A stretch of 64,000 nucleotides of DNA from Roseiarcus fermentans (GTDB lineage: Bacteria; Pseudomonadota; Alphaproteobacteria; Rhizobiales; Beijerinckiaceae): NCBI RefSeq assembly GCF_003315135.1, contig NZ_QNRK01000026.1, positions 1-64,000 on the forward strand. The letters run 5' to 3'. Positions 22,028-49,744 of this stretch are shown here, piece by piece. The notes below the pieces were generated by a model. It saw only the letters and a list, made by a program, of their open reading frames with translations, searched no databases and was not told where the DNA came from. How positions within the stretch are numbered: position 1 is the first letter of the stretch; every line of letters begins with the position of its first letter. The translations under genes and the position numbers were made by a program.

Positions 22028-22637
22028 GCTTCACGGGAAAGCGATCAGGTTCTTGCTGGGCTGCCTGGCGAACGTCCGCGCCTCGCGCCCTCGCCCGGTT
22101 CCGCCGTCGGCGGGTTTATGGCGCTCTCGCGAGGGCGGGCTCCGGCTTCGGTGACGGCGCGCCGCGGAACGCGAAACCGTAAGCGCGGCGGGAGCGCGCT
22201 CCAGCGCCCCGGGACGTGGCGGTCCCGCGGGGTCGGGGCGACGATCCAGGTAATAGCGTCGTCGTTGCGCTTCGTAACTCCCAAGCCGGCAGCGAACAGC
22301 GCCGTCATCGCGAGCGACCCCCGGGTCGAAGAGCCCGGGGGGAAGCGATCCAGGGCCGCTGGGCCGCTGTCGCGCCTTCTGGTCGTCCAGCCGCCCTTCG
22401 TTGCGAGCAGAAGACGGAGCGATTTTTTCCGCAGGAGGCAAGCGGCGGCATGGGTTGCTTCGTCGCTTCGCTCCTCGCAATGACGGGGTTGGGAGTAACT
22501 GCGCTTCGACGTTCGCGTGGGCGGCCCCTGACGGCGGACGGGGCGACGGGCGGTCGTCGCCCGCGCCGGCCGCATCGCGGCCATGCGGCCGGGCGCCGCC
22601 ATTTGATCCGGTCGGACCGATCGCCTACAGCCCCTCC
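22028..22637. other. Repeat-containing spacer before the YaiI-like gene
   Basis: This 610-bp gap holds dispersed repeat copy A (22274-22499). The remaining 5' part (22028-22273) and 3' part (22500-22637) are GC-rich and show no clear gene, RNA or promoter. Confidence 0.5.
22274..22499 (+). repeat. Dispersed repeat family 1, copy A (226 bp)
   Basis: It opens GTAACTCCCAAGCCGGCAGC and closes with GGGGTTGGGAGTAAC, giving short ACTCCCAA/TTGGGAGT terminal inverted repeats. Internal arms GTCATCGCGAGCGA and GCTTCGCTCCTCGCAATGAC are also inverted copies. It is nearly identical to copies at 25655-25858 (inverted) and 49540-49744. Copy A alone carries an extra CCCCCGGG-N8-CCCGGGGG hairpin at 22318-22341. 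There is no coding capacity, so it is MITE- or REP-like. Confidence 0.85.
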
Positions 22638-25654: not shown

Positions 25655-25858
25655 TAGCTCCCAACCCCGTCATTGCGAGGAGCAAAGCGACGAAGCAACC
25701 CATGCCGCCGCTTGCCTCCTGCGGAAAAAATCGCTCCGTCTTCTGCTCGCAACCAAGGGCGGCTGGACGACCAGAGGGCGCGACAGCGGCCCAGCGGCCC
25801 TGGATCGCTTCGCTTCGCTCGCGATGACGGCGCTGTTGGCCACCGGCTTGGGAGTTAC
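25655..25858 (-). repeat. Dispersed repeat family 1, copy B (inverted, 204 bp)
   Basis: This is the reverse complement of copies A and C: it begins AGCTCCCAACCCCGTCATTGC and ends GGCTTGGGAGTTAC. It lacks the extra GC hairpin of copy A and is the same length as copy C to within a base or two. GTTACGATGGGAA follows it, and a similar GTTACGATGGGAA occurs at about 25511, suggesting a partial second copy or flanking duplication. Confidence 0.85.
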
Positions 25859-44468: not shown

Positions 44469-45596
44469 TCAGTCGAGCGTCTCCCGGTAGGCGAGCGTCG
44501 CGAAGGCGATCACCACCACGGCGAACAGCGCCATCGGCCAGATTTCCGGCGCGATCTCGCTCCAGCCGACGCCCTTGAGCAAGAGCGCGCGCACGATCCG
44601 CATCGCATGGGTGATCGGGAACAGGTTGCCGAGCCACTGCGCCCAGACCGGCATGCCGCGGAACGGGAACATGAAGCCGGACAGAATGAAGGACGGCATC
44701 AGGGTGAACTGGGCGAGCTGGACCGCCTGCATCTGGTTGGCCGAGATGGTCGAGAAGGTCACGCCGAGCGCCAGATTGCCGGCGATGAAGAACCCGAGCG
44801 CCCCGAGCAGGAGCGGCACCGAGCCGCGGATCGGCAGGCCGAAGAACAACGACGCCGCGACCAGGATCAGCGACACCTGGATGTAGCCGATGATCACGTA
44901 GGGCGCGATCTTGGCGATCATGACCTCGATCGGCCGCACCGGCATCGCCAGCAGATTCTCCATCGTGCCGCGCTCGCGCTCCTTGGTGATCGCCATGGTG
45001 GTGACGAACAGGGTCGAGAACAGGAGCACGATGCAGATCAGGCCCGGAACGACGTTGAGCACGGTGAGCTGCTCGGGATTGTAGCGGGCGTGCAGGACGA
45101 ACTGGAACGGCGGCGCCGGCGGCGCGATCTGGCGGATCGGCGGCAGGTCGCGATCGAGGTCGGCGACGACGCGATCGAGCGCGGCCACCGCATTGCCGAT
45201 CGCGCTCGGGTCGGTCGCGTCGGCGTCGATCAGCACGCTCGGCCGCTCGCCCCGGTCGACCGCGCGGTCGAAGTCGGGCGGCGTCTCTATGACGAACATC
45301 AGCTCGCCGCGCGCGAGCCCCTCCTCGGCTTCCGTTTCGCTGCGCAGGACCCGGATCTCGTAATAGCCGGAGTTGGTCAACGCAGCGGCGATGGTGCGGG
45401 TGTATTTGGAATCCTCGATCGACAGGAGCCCTGCCGGCAGATGCTTCGGGTCGGAGTTGATCGCATAGCCGAACAGGAACAGCTGGATCATCGGCACCAG
45501 GATGATGATGCGCAGCGTCAGCTTGTCGCGCAGGATCTGGATCGATTCCTTGCGCAGGAGGGCGATCAGGCGCGGGAAGGAGAAGGCGTTGCTCAT
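44469..45596 (-). CDS. ABC-2 type transporter permease
   Basis: The 375-residue protein has one N-terminal membrane helix (about 23-43), a large extracytoplasmic loop (SIEDSKYTRTIAAALTNSGYY onward) and five or six C-terminal helices with TMAITKERERGTMENLLAMPV, typical of the YbhS/YbhR family. It ends MALFAVVVIAFATLAYRETLD. The start overlaps the ATPase stop by four bases. Only one permease is encoded, so it probably forms a homodimer. Confidence 0.92.
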   Translation of the reverse strand: MSNAFSFPRLIALLRKESIQILRDKLTLRIIILVPMIQLFLFGYAINSDPKHLPAGLLSIEDSKYTRTIAAALTNSGYYEIRVLRSETEAEEGLARGELMFVIETPPDFDRAVDRGERPSVLIDADATDPSAIGNAVAALDRVVADLDRDLPPIRQIAPPAPPFQFVLHARYNPEQLTVLNVVPGLICIVLLFSTLFVTTMAITKERERGTMENLLAMPVRPIEVMIAKIAPYVIIGYIQVSLILVAASLFFGLPIRGSVPLLLGALGFFIAGNLALGVTFSTISANQMQAVQLAQFTLMPSFILSGFMFPFRGMPVWAQWLGNLFPITHAMRIVRALLLKGVGWSEIAPEIWPMALFAVVVIAFATLAYRETLD

Positions 45597-46507
45597 CCGC
45601 CCTTCCCCTGGACGCTCAACATGTGGATGAACACGTCGTCGAGGCGCGGCTCGACCTCCCGCCAGACGAGCGCGCCGCCGCGCGTCTCGATCGCCCGCTT
45701 CAGCGCCTCGCGGTCGAGGCTCGCGACCCGCAGCGCGCGGCCGAACACCGCGGCGGCCTCGACGCCCGGCGAATGACGGAGCGCGACCGCGACCCGATCG
45801 ACGTCGTCGCCGCTGCCCTCGAACGCGGTCAGGCCCGACTGGGCGACGACCGTCGCCGCGGCGCCCTGGACCACGATGCGCCCGCGCGCCAGGTAGACGA
45901 TGCGTTTGCAGCGCTCGGCCTCGTCCATGTAGTGGGTCGAGACCAGCGTCGTCAGGCCCTCGACCGCCATGTCGTGGATCAGGTCCCAGAACTCGCGTCG
46001 CGCCTTGGCGTCGACGCCGGCGGTCGGCTCGTCGAGCAGCAGCAGTTTCGGCTCGTGCAGCACGCAGGCGGCGAGCGCGAGCCGCTGCTTCCAGCCGCCC
46101 GAGAGCTGGCCGGCGAGCTGGTCGCGGCGCGGGCCGAGCTCCATCCGGTCGAGAATTCGTCGCACCGCCTCGCGACGGTTCGGCATCTCGTAGACGCGCG
46201 CGACGAAGTCGAGGTTCTCGGCGACCGTCAGGTCCTCGTAGAGGCTGAAGCGCTGGGTCATGTAGCCGACCTGACGGCGGATCGCGTGCGGCTCGCGGAG
46301 GATGTCGTGGCCGAGGCAGTGGCCTTCGCCGCCGTCGGGCTTCAGGAGCCCGCACAGCATGCGGATGGTGGTGGTCTTGCCGCTGCCGTTGGCGCCGAGG
46401 AAGCCGCAGATCTCGCCCTCGGCGACGGTGAGATCGAGGCCCTCGACCACCTGGAGGCCGCCGAACCGCTTGCGCAACCCCCGGACGTCGATGGCCGCCT
46501 CGCTCAT
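45593..46507 (-). CDS. ABC transporter ATP-binding protein (export type)
   Basis: The 304-residue protein has Walker A GANGSGKTTTIRML near 38-51, Q-loop YMTQRFSLYEDL, signature LSGGWKQRLALA near 134, and LLLLDEPTAGVD (Walker B) near 154-165. The C-terminal DUF4162-like tail ends LDDVFIHMLSVQGKGG, typical of ABC-2 exporters such as YbhF and CcmA relatives. It is coupled by ATGA overlaps to the permease and adaptor genes. Confidence 0.94.
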   Translation of the reverse strand: MSEAAIDVRGLRKRFGGLQVVEGLDLTVAEGEICGFLGANGSGKTTTIRMLCGLLKPDGGEGHCLGHDILREPHAIRRQVGYMTQRFSLYEDLTVAENLDFVARVYEMPNRREAVRRILDRMELGPRRDQLAGQLSGGWKQRLALAACVLHEPKLLLLDEPTAGVDAKARREFWDLIHDMAVEGLTTLVSTHYMDEAERCKRIVYLARGRIVVQGAAATVVAQSGLTAFEGSGDDVDRVAVALRHSPGVEAAAVFGRALRVASLDREALKRAIETRGGALVWREVEPRLDDVFIHMLSVQGKGG

Positions 46508-47553
46508 GGCGCGCTCGCCGTCGGCGCCGCCGCCTGCGCCGCGGGCGCGACCGTCACGGGCTGGCCCGGATTGAGGAGCCTCGCCTGATCCGACGGCGGG
46601 CGCGCCTCGGCCAGAAACACGAACTTGCTGCGGTTCGTCTCGGAATAGATGAAGGGCGGCGTGTATTCCGCGCTCGGCGCGATGTACGACACCACGCCGC
46701 CGAGGTCAGCCGGGCAATTGTCGCAGGCGAAATCCACCCGGTCTCCGACGTGGATTTTGGCGAGCTGCGGCTCGGGAATGAAGAAGCGGACGAACACGTT
46801 GCCGGGCGGCAGCAGCGAGACCGCCGGCGCGCCCGCCGAGAGGGTCTCGCCGGGAAAGGCGATCACGTCGGCGATGATCCCGGCCTCGGGCGCCGTCACC
46901 GAGCGCTGGTCGAGCCGCCACTGGGCCTGCTTCAGCGCCGCCTCGAGCGCGTCGACCATCGACCTCTGCGCCTCGATCTCCGACGGCCGGCCCATCGGCG
47001 CCTGCGCGGTCGCGAGCGCCGCCGTCGCCGCCGCCACCTTCGCCTCGGCCGAGCGCAGCGCCGCGTCCTGCTGATCGACGACCTGCTGCGTCGCCGATCC
47101 GGACTTCAGCAGTTGCGCGCTGCGGCGAAGGTCCTCCTGCGCCCGGTCGCGCGCCGCCTGCGCGTCGCCGAGATTGGCCTGGGCCTGGTCGATCTCGCTC
47201 GTCTTCGCCGGCGCCATGAGGTTGGCGAGCTGCCCGCGCGCCTGCTGCAACAGGCGGCGCGCCTGATCGACCGCGGCGCGGTCGTCGGCGTCGTCCTGCG
47301 TGAACAGCGGCTGGCCCTTGACGACCCGGTCGCCCCGCGCCACGCGCACCGCGGTGAGGAGCCCTGCCTGGGTCGGCCCGATCTTGACGAAATCCGCCTC
47401 GGCATAGCCCTGCCACGCGACCGGCGCCGGCGGCCTCGGACGGAACAGCGCCCACCCAGCGCCCGCGACGAGCGCGATCACAACCGCGGGGACGAGAAAA
47501 CGTCGAATCAAGGCGGGCGCTCGGCCGCGGCGACACGGCCGCTTCGGACGCAT
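46504..47553 (-). CDS. HlyD family periplasmic adaptor (MFP) subunit
   Basis: The 349-residue protein has an N-terminal signal anchor (about 16-35), a lipoyl/barrel-sandwich half (GYAEADFVKIGPTQAGLLTAV), a long coiled coil at about 80-205 rich in Ala/Gln/Arg, and the return lipoyl half (SVTAPEAGIIADVIAFPGETL). It links the inner-membrane ABC exporter to an outer-membrane factor, as YbhG does. The first gene of the three-gene unit, it is divergent from the HAD-HerA-like gene. Confidence 0.92.
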   Translation of the reverse strand: MRPKRPCRRGRAPALIRRFLVPAVVIALVAGAGWALFRPRPPAPVAWQGYAEADFVKIGPTQAGLLTAVRVARGDRVVKGQPLFTQDDADDRAAVDQARRLLQQARGQLANLMAPAKTSEIDQAQANLGDAQAARDRAQEDLRRSAQLLKSGSATQQVVDQQDAALRSAEAKVAAATAALATAQAPMGRPSEIEAQRSMVDALEAALKQAQWRLDQRSVTAPEAGIIADVIAFPGETLSAGAPAVSLLPPGNVFVRFFIPEPQLAKIHVGDRVDFACDNCPADLGGVVSYIAPSAEYTPPFIYSETNRSKFVFLAEARPPSDQARLLNPGQPVTVAPAAQAAAPTASAP

Positions 47554-47665
47554 CCCTTAGCGGCGTTCGCCGGGAAAAAACATTGGGACCGAAGGACGCG
47601 GGCGCGGGCCGCCGGAACCGAACGCGGCCGCCGCGCGTTCCCCCCGGGCCAGGAGGGGCGTTTCC

Positions 47666-49390
47666 ATGTTCATCATCTGTCTCGCGACCGATTACGACGG
47701 CACGCTCGCGCACGACGGCGTCGTCGATTCCGCCACGATCGACGCGCTCGTCCGCCTCAGGCGCTCGGGCCGCAGGGTCGTCCTCGTCACCGGCCGCGAA
47801 CTCCCCGACCTCGTCCGCGTCTGTCCGCGCCTCGACCTGTTCGATCGGGTCGTCGCCGAGAACGGCGCGCTGCTGTTCGATCCCGCGACCCGGCGGGAAC
47901 GGCCGCTCGCCCCCGAGCCCTCGCCGGAATTCGTCGCGGCTCTGCGCGAGAAAGGCGTCCCGCTGTCGGTCGGGCGGTCGATCGTCGCCACCTGGGAGCC
48001 GCACGAGAACGCGGTTCTGAAAGCTATTCGCGAACTCGGGCTCGAATTGCAGATCACGTTCAACAAGGGCGCGGTGATGGTCCTGCCGGCCGGCGTCAAC
48101 AAGGCGAGCGGGCTTGCCGCGGCGCTCGACGACCTCGGCCTCTCCGCCCACAACGTGGTCGCGGTCGGCGACGCCGAGAACGACCACGCCTTCATGCAGG
48201 CCTCCGGCTTTTCCGCAGCCGTCGCCAACGCCCTGCCGGCGGTCAAGGAGACGGCCGACCTCGTGACGGAGCGCCCGCGCGGCGCGGGCGTCGCGGAGCT
48301 GATCGCGCGCCTTCTCGAAGACGATGTGGACGCCTTCGCCCCCTTCAAGGCGCGCGGCCTCGTCCAGGCGGCGGTCCGCCCTGACGGGACGCCGGTCTAT
48401 CTGCGCCCGCATGGCGGCGGCGCGCTGGTCGCGGGGCTCTCGGGCGGCGGCAAATCGACGCTCGCGACCGCGCTCGTCGAAGGGATGATCGCGGGCGGCT
48501 TCCAGGTCGTCGTGTTCGACCCGGAGGGCGATTACGCCGACTTTCGCGCGGCGGTCGCGCTCGGCGACGCCAAGTCGCCGCCGCGCCTGCCCGAATTGCT
48601 CAAGGCGCTCGATCGCCCGGGCGACAGCGTCGTCGTCAATCTGCTCGCCATCGGCGTCGAGGACCGCCCGGCCGCCTTCGCCGGCTTCGCCGGGGCCGCG
48701 ATCGAGATGCAGGGCCGGACCGGGCGGCCGCACTGGCTGCTGGTCGACGAGGCCCACCATGTCCTGCCGGCCGAGCGGGACGTCAACGCCGGCGCCGCGC
48801 TGTCGAGCCTGCCCGCCGTCCTGGTCACCGTCGACCCGGAAGCCGTCTCGGCCGAAGCGCTCGCGCGCGTCGACGACGTGTTCGCAGTCGGAACCCGGCC
48901 CGCCGAGACGATCGCCGCCTTCTGCCGGGCCCTGTCGATCGCGCCGCCGCCGCTGCCCGAGGGCCCGGCGGAACACGGGCAGGCGCTGTTCTGGCGGCGC
49001 TCCTCGCCCCGGGCGCCGGAATTCGTCGCGCCGCGCGCGCCCGCCGCCAAGATGGAGCGCCACACGCGCAAATACGCCGAGGGCGAGCTCGGCGAGGACA
49101 AGAGCTTCTATTTCCGCGGCCCCGACGGCGCGCTCAACTTGCGCGCTCAGAACCTCACGATCTTCCTGCAGATGGCGGACGGGGTCGACGACCGAACCTG
49201 GCTGCATCACCTGAAGGCGGGCGACGTCTCGACCTGGATCCACGACGCGATCAAGGACGACGATCTGGCGTCGGAAGCGGAGCGGATCGAGGCGGCGGAA
49301 GCCGATCCGGCGCGCTCGCGCAGGGCGATGCGCCAGGCGATCGAGCGAAAATATACGGCGCCGGCTTCGAAGGGGTCCGATCCGGGCTAG
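47666..49390 (+). CDS. HAD hydrolase fused to a HerA/DUF87-like P-loop ATPase
   Basis: The 574-residue protein has two modules. Residues 1-225 are a HAD phosphatase of the Cof/IIB type: DYDGT at 9-13 (Asp9, Asp11), VTGR at 41-44, NK near 144-146 and GDAEND at 168-173. Residues 245-574 are a P-loop domain with Walker A GLSGGGKST at 257-265, FDPEGDYADF at 284-293 and Walker B WLLVDEAHH at 357-365, resembling HerA/DUF87 ATPases. The C-terminal charged helix (about 530-562) may be a partner site. The product is cytosolic; the role is unknown. A hairpin follows the stop. Confidence 0.9.
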   Translation: MFIICLATDYDGTLAHDGVVDSATIDALVRLRRSGRRVVLVTGRELPDLVRVCPRLDLFDRVVAENGALLFDPATRRERPLAPEPSPEFVAALREKGVPLSVGRSIVATWEPHENAVLKAIRELGLELQITFNKGAVMVLPAGVNKASGLAAALDDLGLSAHNVVAVGDAENDHAFMQASGFSAAVANALPAVKETADLVTERPRGAGVAELIARLLEDDVDAFAPFKARGLVQAAVRPDGTPVYLRPHGGGALVAGLSGGGKSTLATALVEGMIAGGFQVVVFDPEGDYADFRAAVALGDAKSPPRLPELLKALDRPGDSVVVNLLAIGVEDRPAAFAGFAGAAIEMQGRTGRPHWLLVDEAHHVLPAERDVNAGAALSSLPAVLVTVDPEAVSAEALARVDDVFAVGTRPAETIAAFCRALSIAPPPLPEGPAEHGQALFWRRSSPRAPEFVAPRAPAAKMERHTRKYAEGELGEDKSFYFRGPDGALNLRAQNLTIFLQMADGVDDRTWLHHLKAGDVSTWIHDAIKDDDLASEAERIEAAEADPARSRRAMRQAIERKYTAPASKGSDPG

Positions 49391-49457: not shown

Positions 49458-49539
49458 CCCCCTCCCCCGTTTCGCTTCGCTTCACGGAGGAGGAAAGCGG
49501 CGGACGGCTTGGGAGTTACCGTCGGTCGAGCGGCGCAAA

Positions 49540-49744
49540 GTAACTCCCAAGCCGGCAGCGAACAGCGCCGTCATCGCGAGCGAAGCGAAGCGATCCAGGG
49601 CCGCTGGGCCGCTGTTGCGCCCTCTGATCGTCCCGCCGCCCTTCGTTGCGAGCAGAAGACGGAGCGATTTTTTCCGCAGGAGGCAAGCGGCGGCATGGGT
49701 TGCTTCGTCGCTTCGCTCCTCGCAATGACGGGGTTGGGAGTAAC
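49540..49744 (+). repeat. Dispersed repeat family 1, copy C (205 bp)
   Basis: It starts GTAACTCCCAAGCCGGCAGC, ends GGGGTTGGGAGTAAC and is almost identical to copy A except that it lacks the extra GC hairpin (226 against 205 bp). A stray GCTTGGGAGTTACC end lies 20-30 bp to its left, in inverted orientation. Confidence 0.85.

Follow-up and report, generated by a model that had tools for sequence, protein, structure and literature searches.

A gene joining a HAD-IIB phosphatase to a HerA-fold ATPase without the standard motor motif in Roseiarcus fermentans, with a possible role in sugar-phosphate metabolism

We analysed a stretch of 64,000 nucleotides of Roseiarcus fermentans (contig NZ_QNRK01000026.1, positions 1 to 64,000), referred to below as the window. 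Positions 47666–49390 of the forward (+) strand, on which all parts of the gene described below are located, form a single unbroken open reading frame with an ATG start, preceded nine bases upstream by a Shine-Dalgarno-like AGGAGG (47651–47656). The frame encodes 574 amino acids, and the Pfam matches, an alignment of 26 homologues and an AlphaFold2 model divide the protein into a HAD-IIB phosphatase, a HerA-fold ATPase and a DUF5752-like C-terminal domain. The mean pLDDT was 88 for the full-length model and 87 for a model of residues 225–574; the alignment for structure prediction was made of the homologue rows without the plasmid rows. The three folds are known, and their combination is one for which we found no description: a literature search, with subscription papers outside its scope, returned no relevant publication on a HAD-HerA fusion or on DUF5752. 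The public records examined name such proteins "HAD-IIB family hydrolase", "HAD hydrolase family protein" or "HAD family hydrolase", ignoring the ATPase half.

The immediate neighbours of the gene are HlyD/ABC and LysE genes. A HlyD-family membrane fusion protein is encoded divergently at 46504–47553 (− strand; HlyD_3, 1e-14), followed by the ATPase of an ABC transporter at 45593–46507 (− strand), assigned from the reading frame, its sequence and its place in the ABC cluster. A similar HlyD/ABC efflux cluster is found near the Agrobacterium and G633 homologues (loci L015 and L061). Downstream, about 110 bases 3' of the stop codon, a 20-nt inverted repeat with 90% complementarity and a 20-nt loop occupies positions 49500–49559 and is possibly a terminator or the remnant of a mobile repeat. 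Three copies of the repeat TGCGAGGAGCGAAGCGACGAAGCAAC lie in the window (22454–22479, 25674–25699 and 49699–49724) versus zero expected, the third of them in the gap downstream of the fusion gene.

The phosphatase domain comprises residues 1–217 (47666–48316). Pfam Hydrolase_3 (PF08282) matches the protein with an E-value of 5.3e-28 in two stretches, the better one at residues 131–213, and the superfamily model TIGR01484 scores 87.5 bits, above its cut-off of 41.8. All four HAD motifs are present, namely DYDGT (residues 9–13), VTGR (41–44), K146 and GDAEND (168–173); residues D9, D11, R44, N66, K146, D169, N172 and D173 are invariant among the 26 aligned homologues, and T42 is found in 25 of them, with serine in the remaining one. 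The DxD pair, motifs II–IV and the significant family score place the domain in the HAD-IIB superfamily, whose members act on small molecules. The closest structure in the Foldseek comparison was PH1421 (1wr8, 4e-18); phosphatases of the Cof type and those for sucrose phosphate and trehalose-6-phosphate ranked below it. The domain resembles the HAD-IIB/Cof-type phosphatases (PF08282, TIGR01487, PH1421) in fold, in its four motifs and in the size of core and C2 cap; the matched known members, however, consist of this domain alone, whereas the window protein adds an ATPase and a third domain.

The best NCBIfam match is TIGR01487, phosphoglycolate phosphatase, at 109.9 bits, and together with the top structural match to 1wr8 it favours a phosphoglycolate or general house-cleaning phosphatase unrelated to trehalose, for which the links to sugar operons described below would be incidental. 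The score is, however, below the equivalog cut-off of 122.75, and no HAD equivalog cut-off was reached by the window protein in the NCBIfam scan. The Pfam scan gave no match to the trehalose-6-phosphate phosphatase family OtsB (PF02358) up to an E-value of 1.

The second domain, at residues ~233–456 (48362–49033), has the RecA-like core of the HerA/FtsK type. It matches the DUF87/HerA central domain (PF01935) with an E-value of 4.8e-8 at residues 255–294, and VIA-align superimposes it on HerA (4d2i) with Z 20.4 and 3.4 Å over 231 residues. HerA, DndH and VirB4 are the top rows of this comparison, and B204 and FtsK also match, so that the sequence-only reading of the gene as a HAD phosphatase joined to a HerA-like ATPase is correct at the level of the fold. 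The motifs it quoted are likewise invariant or nearly so in the 26 homologues: Walker A, GLSGGGKST (residues 257–265, 48434–48460), with G257, G262 and K263 in all members; and Walker B, WLLVDEAHH (residues 357–365, 48734–48760), with E362 and H364 in all and D361 in 25 of 26. Between them lies the strand motif DPEGDY (residues 285–290, 48518–48535), common to DUF87 relatives, with D285 and E287 in 26 of 26.

In FtsK/HerA ATPases, a third motif beside Walker A and B supplies the arginine finger together with a sensor position that is mostly glutamine (PMC11703096). In the nearest DUF87 relatives outside the fusion family, which are mostly ~500–600 amino acids long and have profile E-values down to 2.5e-17, this motif reads RGRKRGLAGVIATQR (17 of 17 among the relatives listed). 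At the corresponding site the window protein has a short spacer and a strand (residues 366–391, 48761–48838); the spacer from Walker B to the sensor is 23–26 residues in the fusion family versus 39 in 18 relatives. Neither GRKxG nor TQ[RK] occurs in any of the 26 members, the region holds no conserved arginine, and the sensor glutamine is replaced. Arginines are conserved elsewhere, at R334 (26/26), R349 (23/26, glutamine in the window protein) and R354 (24/26), and these could in principle act from their own positions. Because of them, the loss shown here is that of the standard motor signature, and ATP hydrolysis may be retained. By alignment, then, the ATPase half shares fold, Walker A, the DPEGD strand and Walker B with the FtsK/HerA and DUF87 proteins, and differs from them in being without the standard motor signature and in carrying a HAD phosphatase as its N-terminal domain.

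This absence, overlooked earlier together with the C-terminal domain, bears on the suggestion that the fusion drives a motor. A true HerA-like hexameric DNA translocase, with the HAD domain as its payload or as an end-processing phosphatase in DNA repair or pumping, would agree with the HerA/FtsK fold, the DUF87 match and the intact Walker motifs; the lack of the arginine-finger/sensor-glutamine motif in 26 of 26 members and the small-molecule substrates of HAD-IIB enzymes speak against it. The neighbours of the homologues include no DNA-processing gene, such as NurA, that recurs as a partner, and the ATPase looks dispensable on the tree described below. We consider a translocase very unlikely.

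The same fold bears on the idea of an unusual kinase-phosphatase, in which the P-loop domain would phosphorylate, and the HAD domain dephosphorylate, one sugar metabolite. Both catalytic centres are conserved and the P-loop has weak sequence matches to APS-kinase models, but the HerA/VirB4/FtsK fold extends across ~230 residues, DPEGDY and DEAHH are HerA-type motifs, and neither a kinase lid nor a substrate motif was recognised. Because of this fold we regard a bifunctional kinase-phosphatase as highly improbable; no described bifunctional enzyme of sugar phosphates with a different fold turned up.

The C-terminal helical domain, at residues ~465–563 (49058–49354), is conserved across the fusion homologues. 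Its profile finds OrfY of Thermoproteus tenax (PDB 4cso) with an E-value of 1.1e-4, both repeats of that structure being aligned, and 18 of 24 members give weak matches to DUF5752 (PF19027; best E-value 4.2e-4), the window copy scoring 11.4 bits, below the gathering score of 23 bits. The window domain shares the helical pattern DxSxWxxxxIxDxxLA with DUF5752 and OrfY, with one copy versus two. Distant homology to DUF5752/OrfY is moderately supported by these sequence profiles. Within 249 genomes of the order the domain is confined to the HAD fusion, with the exception of one marginal match in a stop-containing frame. A place for OrfY in the trehalose operon of T. tenax was also considered and dropped, since the published description names only msc-gt-tpsp.

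An architecture search showed that the three-domain order recurs in homologues from three phyla. Members of the Alpha- and Betaproteobacteria, Cyanobacteria and Actinobacteria share it at 44–75% identity; compared with the window protein the values are 44–54%, and 75% for a single partial copy from the same genus. A phylum-wide sample of 398 genomes contained full-length homologues of the same domain order in 9 besides the window's own, with a free HAD as the tenth match (G235); in an order-wide sample of 297 genomes, 20 besides the window's own had such homologues, and the other matching genomes have only a free HAD. Further full-length homologues are present in Sinorhizobium, Aminobacter, Agrobacterium, Paraburkholderia, Caballeronia, Synechococcus PCC 7502, Nonomuraea and Actinorugispora records. 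Conservation across these groups shows that the three-part architecture is not an artefact, its presence in three phyla excludes a chance joining, and this spread together with the invariant residues indicates an old, selected architecture. A phage origin was rejected, as the scan of viral contigs found no relative.

Free HADs, 56–65% identical to the HAD of the fusion, come from Nostoc, from genomes G006 and G007 of the window's own genus and from several genomes of the order. In a maximum-likelihood tree of the HADs, from which the wrong-frame row L078 was excluded, they nest among the fusions: constraining the fusions to one clade was rejected (p-AU 0.0004), and the well-supported branches force at least three changes between the fusion and free labels. 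This nesting makes the ATPase seem dispensable. It suggests repeated loss of the ATPase/C-terminal half as the simplest reading, the direction not being fixed by the tree alone.

The neighbourhoods of the homologues hold genes of sugar metabolism and stress. They code for glycosyltransferase 4 (GT4), Usp and ROK kinases, for a hydrolase resembling debranching enzymes, and for a GT20 enzyme resembling trehalose-6-phosphate synthase. In genomes G232 and G235, two species of one genus, a free HAD ~60% identical to that of the fusion is the first gene of a tight operon HAD-GT4-GDE-GT20 (L069, 8813–14816, and L067, 8952–14973, respectively), the third gene being GDE_N_bis/MGH1-like. Both genomes gave no genome-wide match to OtsB, though GT20 is present, and in G109, G312 and G369 the order GT4-GDE-GT20 is followed directly by OtsB. 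The free HAD of these two loci is a candidate for a non-OtsB trehalose-6-phosphate phosphatase. Its closest relative in the maximum-likelihood tree is the HAD of the Aminobacter fusion (support 98/95). In its complete form this fusion is divergently oriented to a neighbouring GT4-GDE-GT20 row on two Aminobacter plasmids, where the annotation places no OtsB beside it. Two GT4 genes directly upstream of the fusion, with a gap of 15 bases, are found in Caballeronia, and free HADs close to the fusion family have ROK family genes as direct neighbours at L066 (10300–12056) and L070 (8240–10038). An ABC transporter that includes a BPD_transp_2 permease is a further neighbour of the L070 HAD.

The window's own genome (G000) has an OtsB match at C21:37329 with GT20 nearby at C21:39880 (locus L129, C21 37329–41187). 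The fusion is therefore not needed there as the only trehalose-6-phosphate phosphatase, and its substrate may be a different phosphorylated sugar, or its action may be limited to stress. The HlyD/ABC and LysE genes at its side, the lack of a HAD equivalog match and the restriction of the OtsB-less genomes to one genus also count against the mechanism proposed below. This OtsB also favours the house-cleaning phosphatase introduced above; against it, GT4, GT20 and ROK neighbours recur, and we hold it to be unlikely.

Usp genes lie near or adjoin five fusions, to be compared with 3–15 Usp matches per genome; because these loci are partly related, the nominal binomial value exaggerates the association. 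On an Agrobacterium plasmid (L015, 1–17590) the fusion is surrounded by a stress island of RbbA/HlyD, Usp, CBS proteins, P-type ATPases, phosphoketolase and acetate kinase, parts of which recur at L050, L061, L062, L063 and L065. Control by FixK/FNR, prompted by the low-oxygen type of these neighbours, was rejected: no FixK/FNR box was found in 38 upstream regions.

The gene-neighbourhood check proposed earlier thus returned sugar and stress genes, and neither recurring defence genes nor recurring DNA-processing partners. This weighs against the hint of a defence role, in which the fusion would be a HerA-associated anti-phage effector with the HAD domain acting on nucleotides. The HerA-fold matches do take in the Sir2/HerA and HerA-DUF4297 defence complexes, and PADLOC gave weak mad8 and HerA matches; these, however, span only the P-loop region, the third motif is missing, no relative appeared in the viral contig scan, and no defence genes recur among the neighbours. 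PADLOC recovered no defence HerA over its full length, and the annotated neighbours include no partner gene of the nuclease or Sir2 type. With its matches partial and its neighbours of another kind, defence was dropped as the main reading, and we judge it extremely improbable.

Taken together, these data make a controlled metabolic enzyme of the trehalose type more likely than a motor or defence protein. The earlier view of the HAD domain as a small-molecule phosphatase is right by family, and the type is that of the sugar-phosphate enzymes: the substrate of the fusion is probably a sugar phosphate of some kind. From the fold and the operon swap, we tentatively propose a substrate of the trehalose-6-phosphate type. 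OtsB shares the HAD-IIB fold, and the free HAD takes its place in the GT4-GDE-GT20 operon of two genomes; the window protein differs from OtsB in lacking a PF02358 match and in its extra ATPase and C-terminal domains. A comparable arrangement is the TPSP complex of T. tenax (PMC3634074), in which a HAD-type trehalose-6-phosphate phosphatase works with GT20 and another glycosyltransferase and synthase activity needs a partner; there the HAD is fused to GT20, without a HerA-fold module, whereas the HAD of the window protein is fused to an ATPase.

In the proposed mechanism, the HAD-IIB (C2-cap type) phosphatase would remove the phosphate from the product of a glycosyltransferase, most likely of the trehalose-6-phosphate kind, and the HerA-fold ATP-binding module and the DUF5752-like helical domain would regulate, oligomerise or locate it in cis. 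We consider the chances evenly balanced that the protein as a whole is a HAD-IIB sugar-phosphate phosphatase carrying these two modules in cis. The retained ATP site, the lost motor motif and the apparent dispensability of the ATPase lead us to infer, with equal reserve, that ATP binding serves as a switch or scaffold and not for DNA translocation. That a HerA/FtsK-fold ATPase without its motor motif was recruited, in several phyla, as an ATP-sensing switch on a trehalose-type phosphatase is conceivable but doubtful; if true, a DNA-pump fold would gate compatible-solute or sugar-phosphate metabolism according to the energy state of the cell. If the reading of the fusion as a phosphatase controlled in cis holds, an FtsK/HerA-fold module would work in metabolic control and not in DNA movement, and the family would become a candidate source of the phosphatase missing from genomes with a GT20 trehalose-6-phosphate-synthase-like gene and no OtsB.
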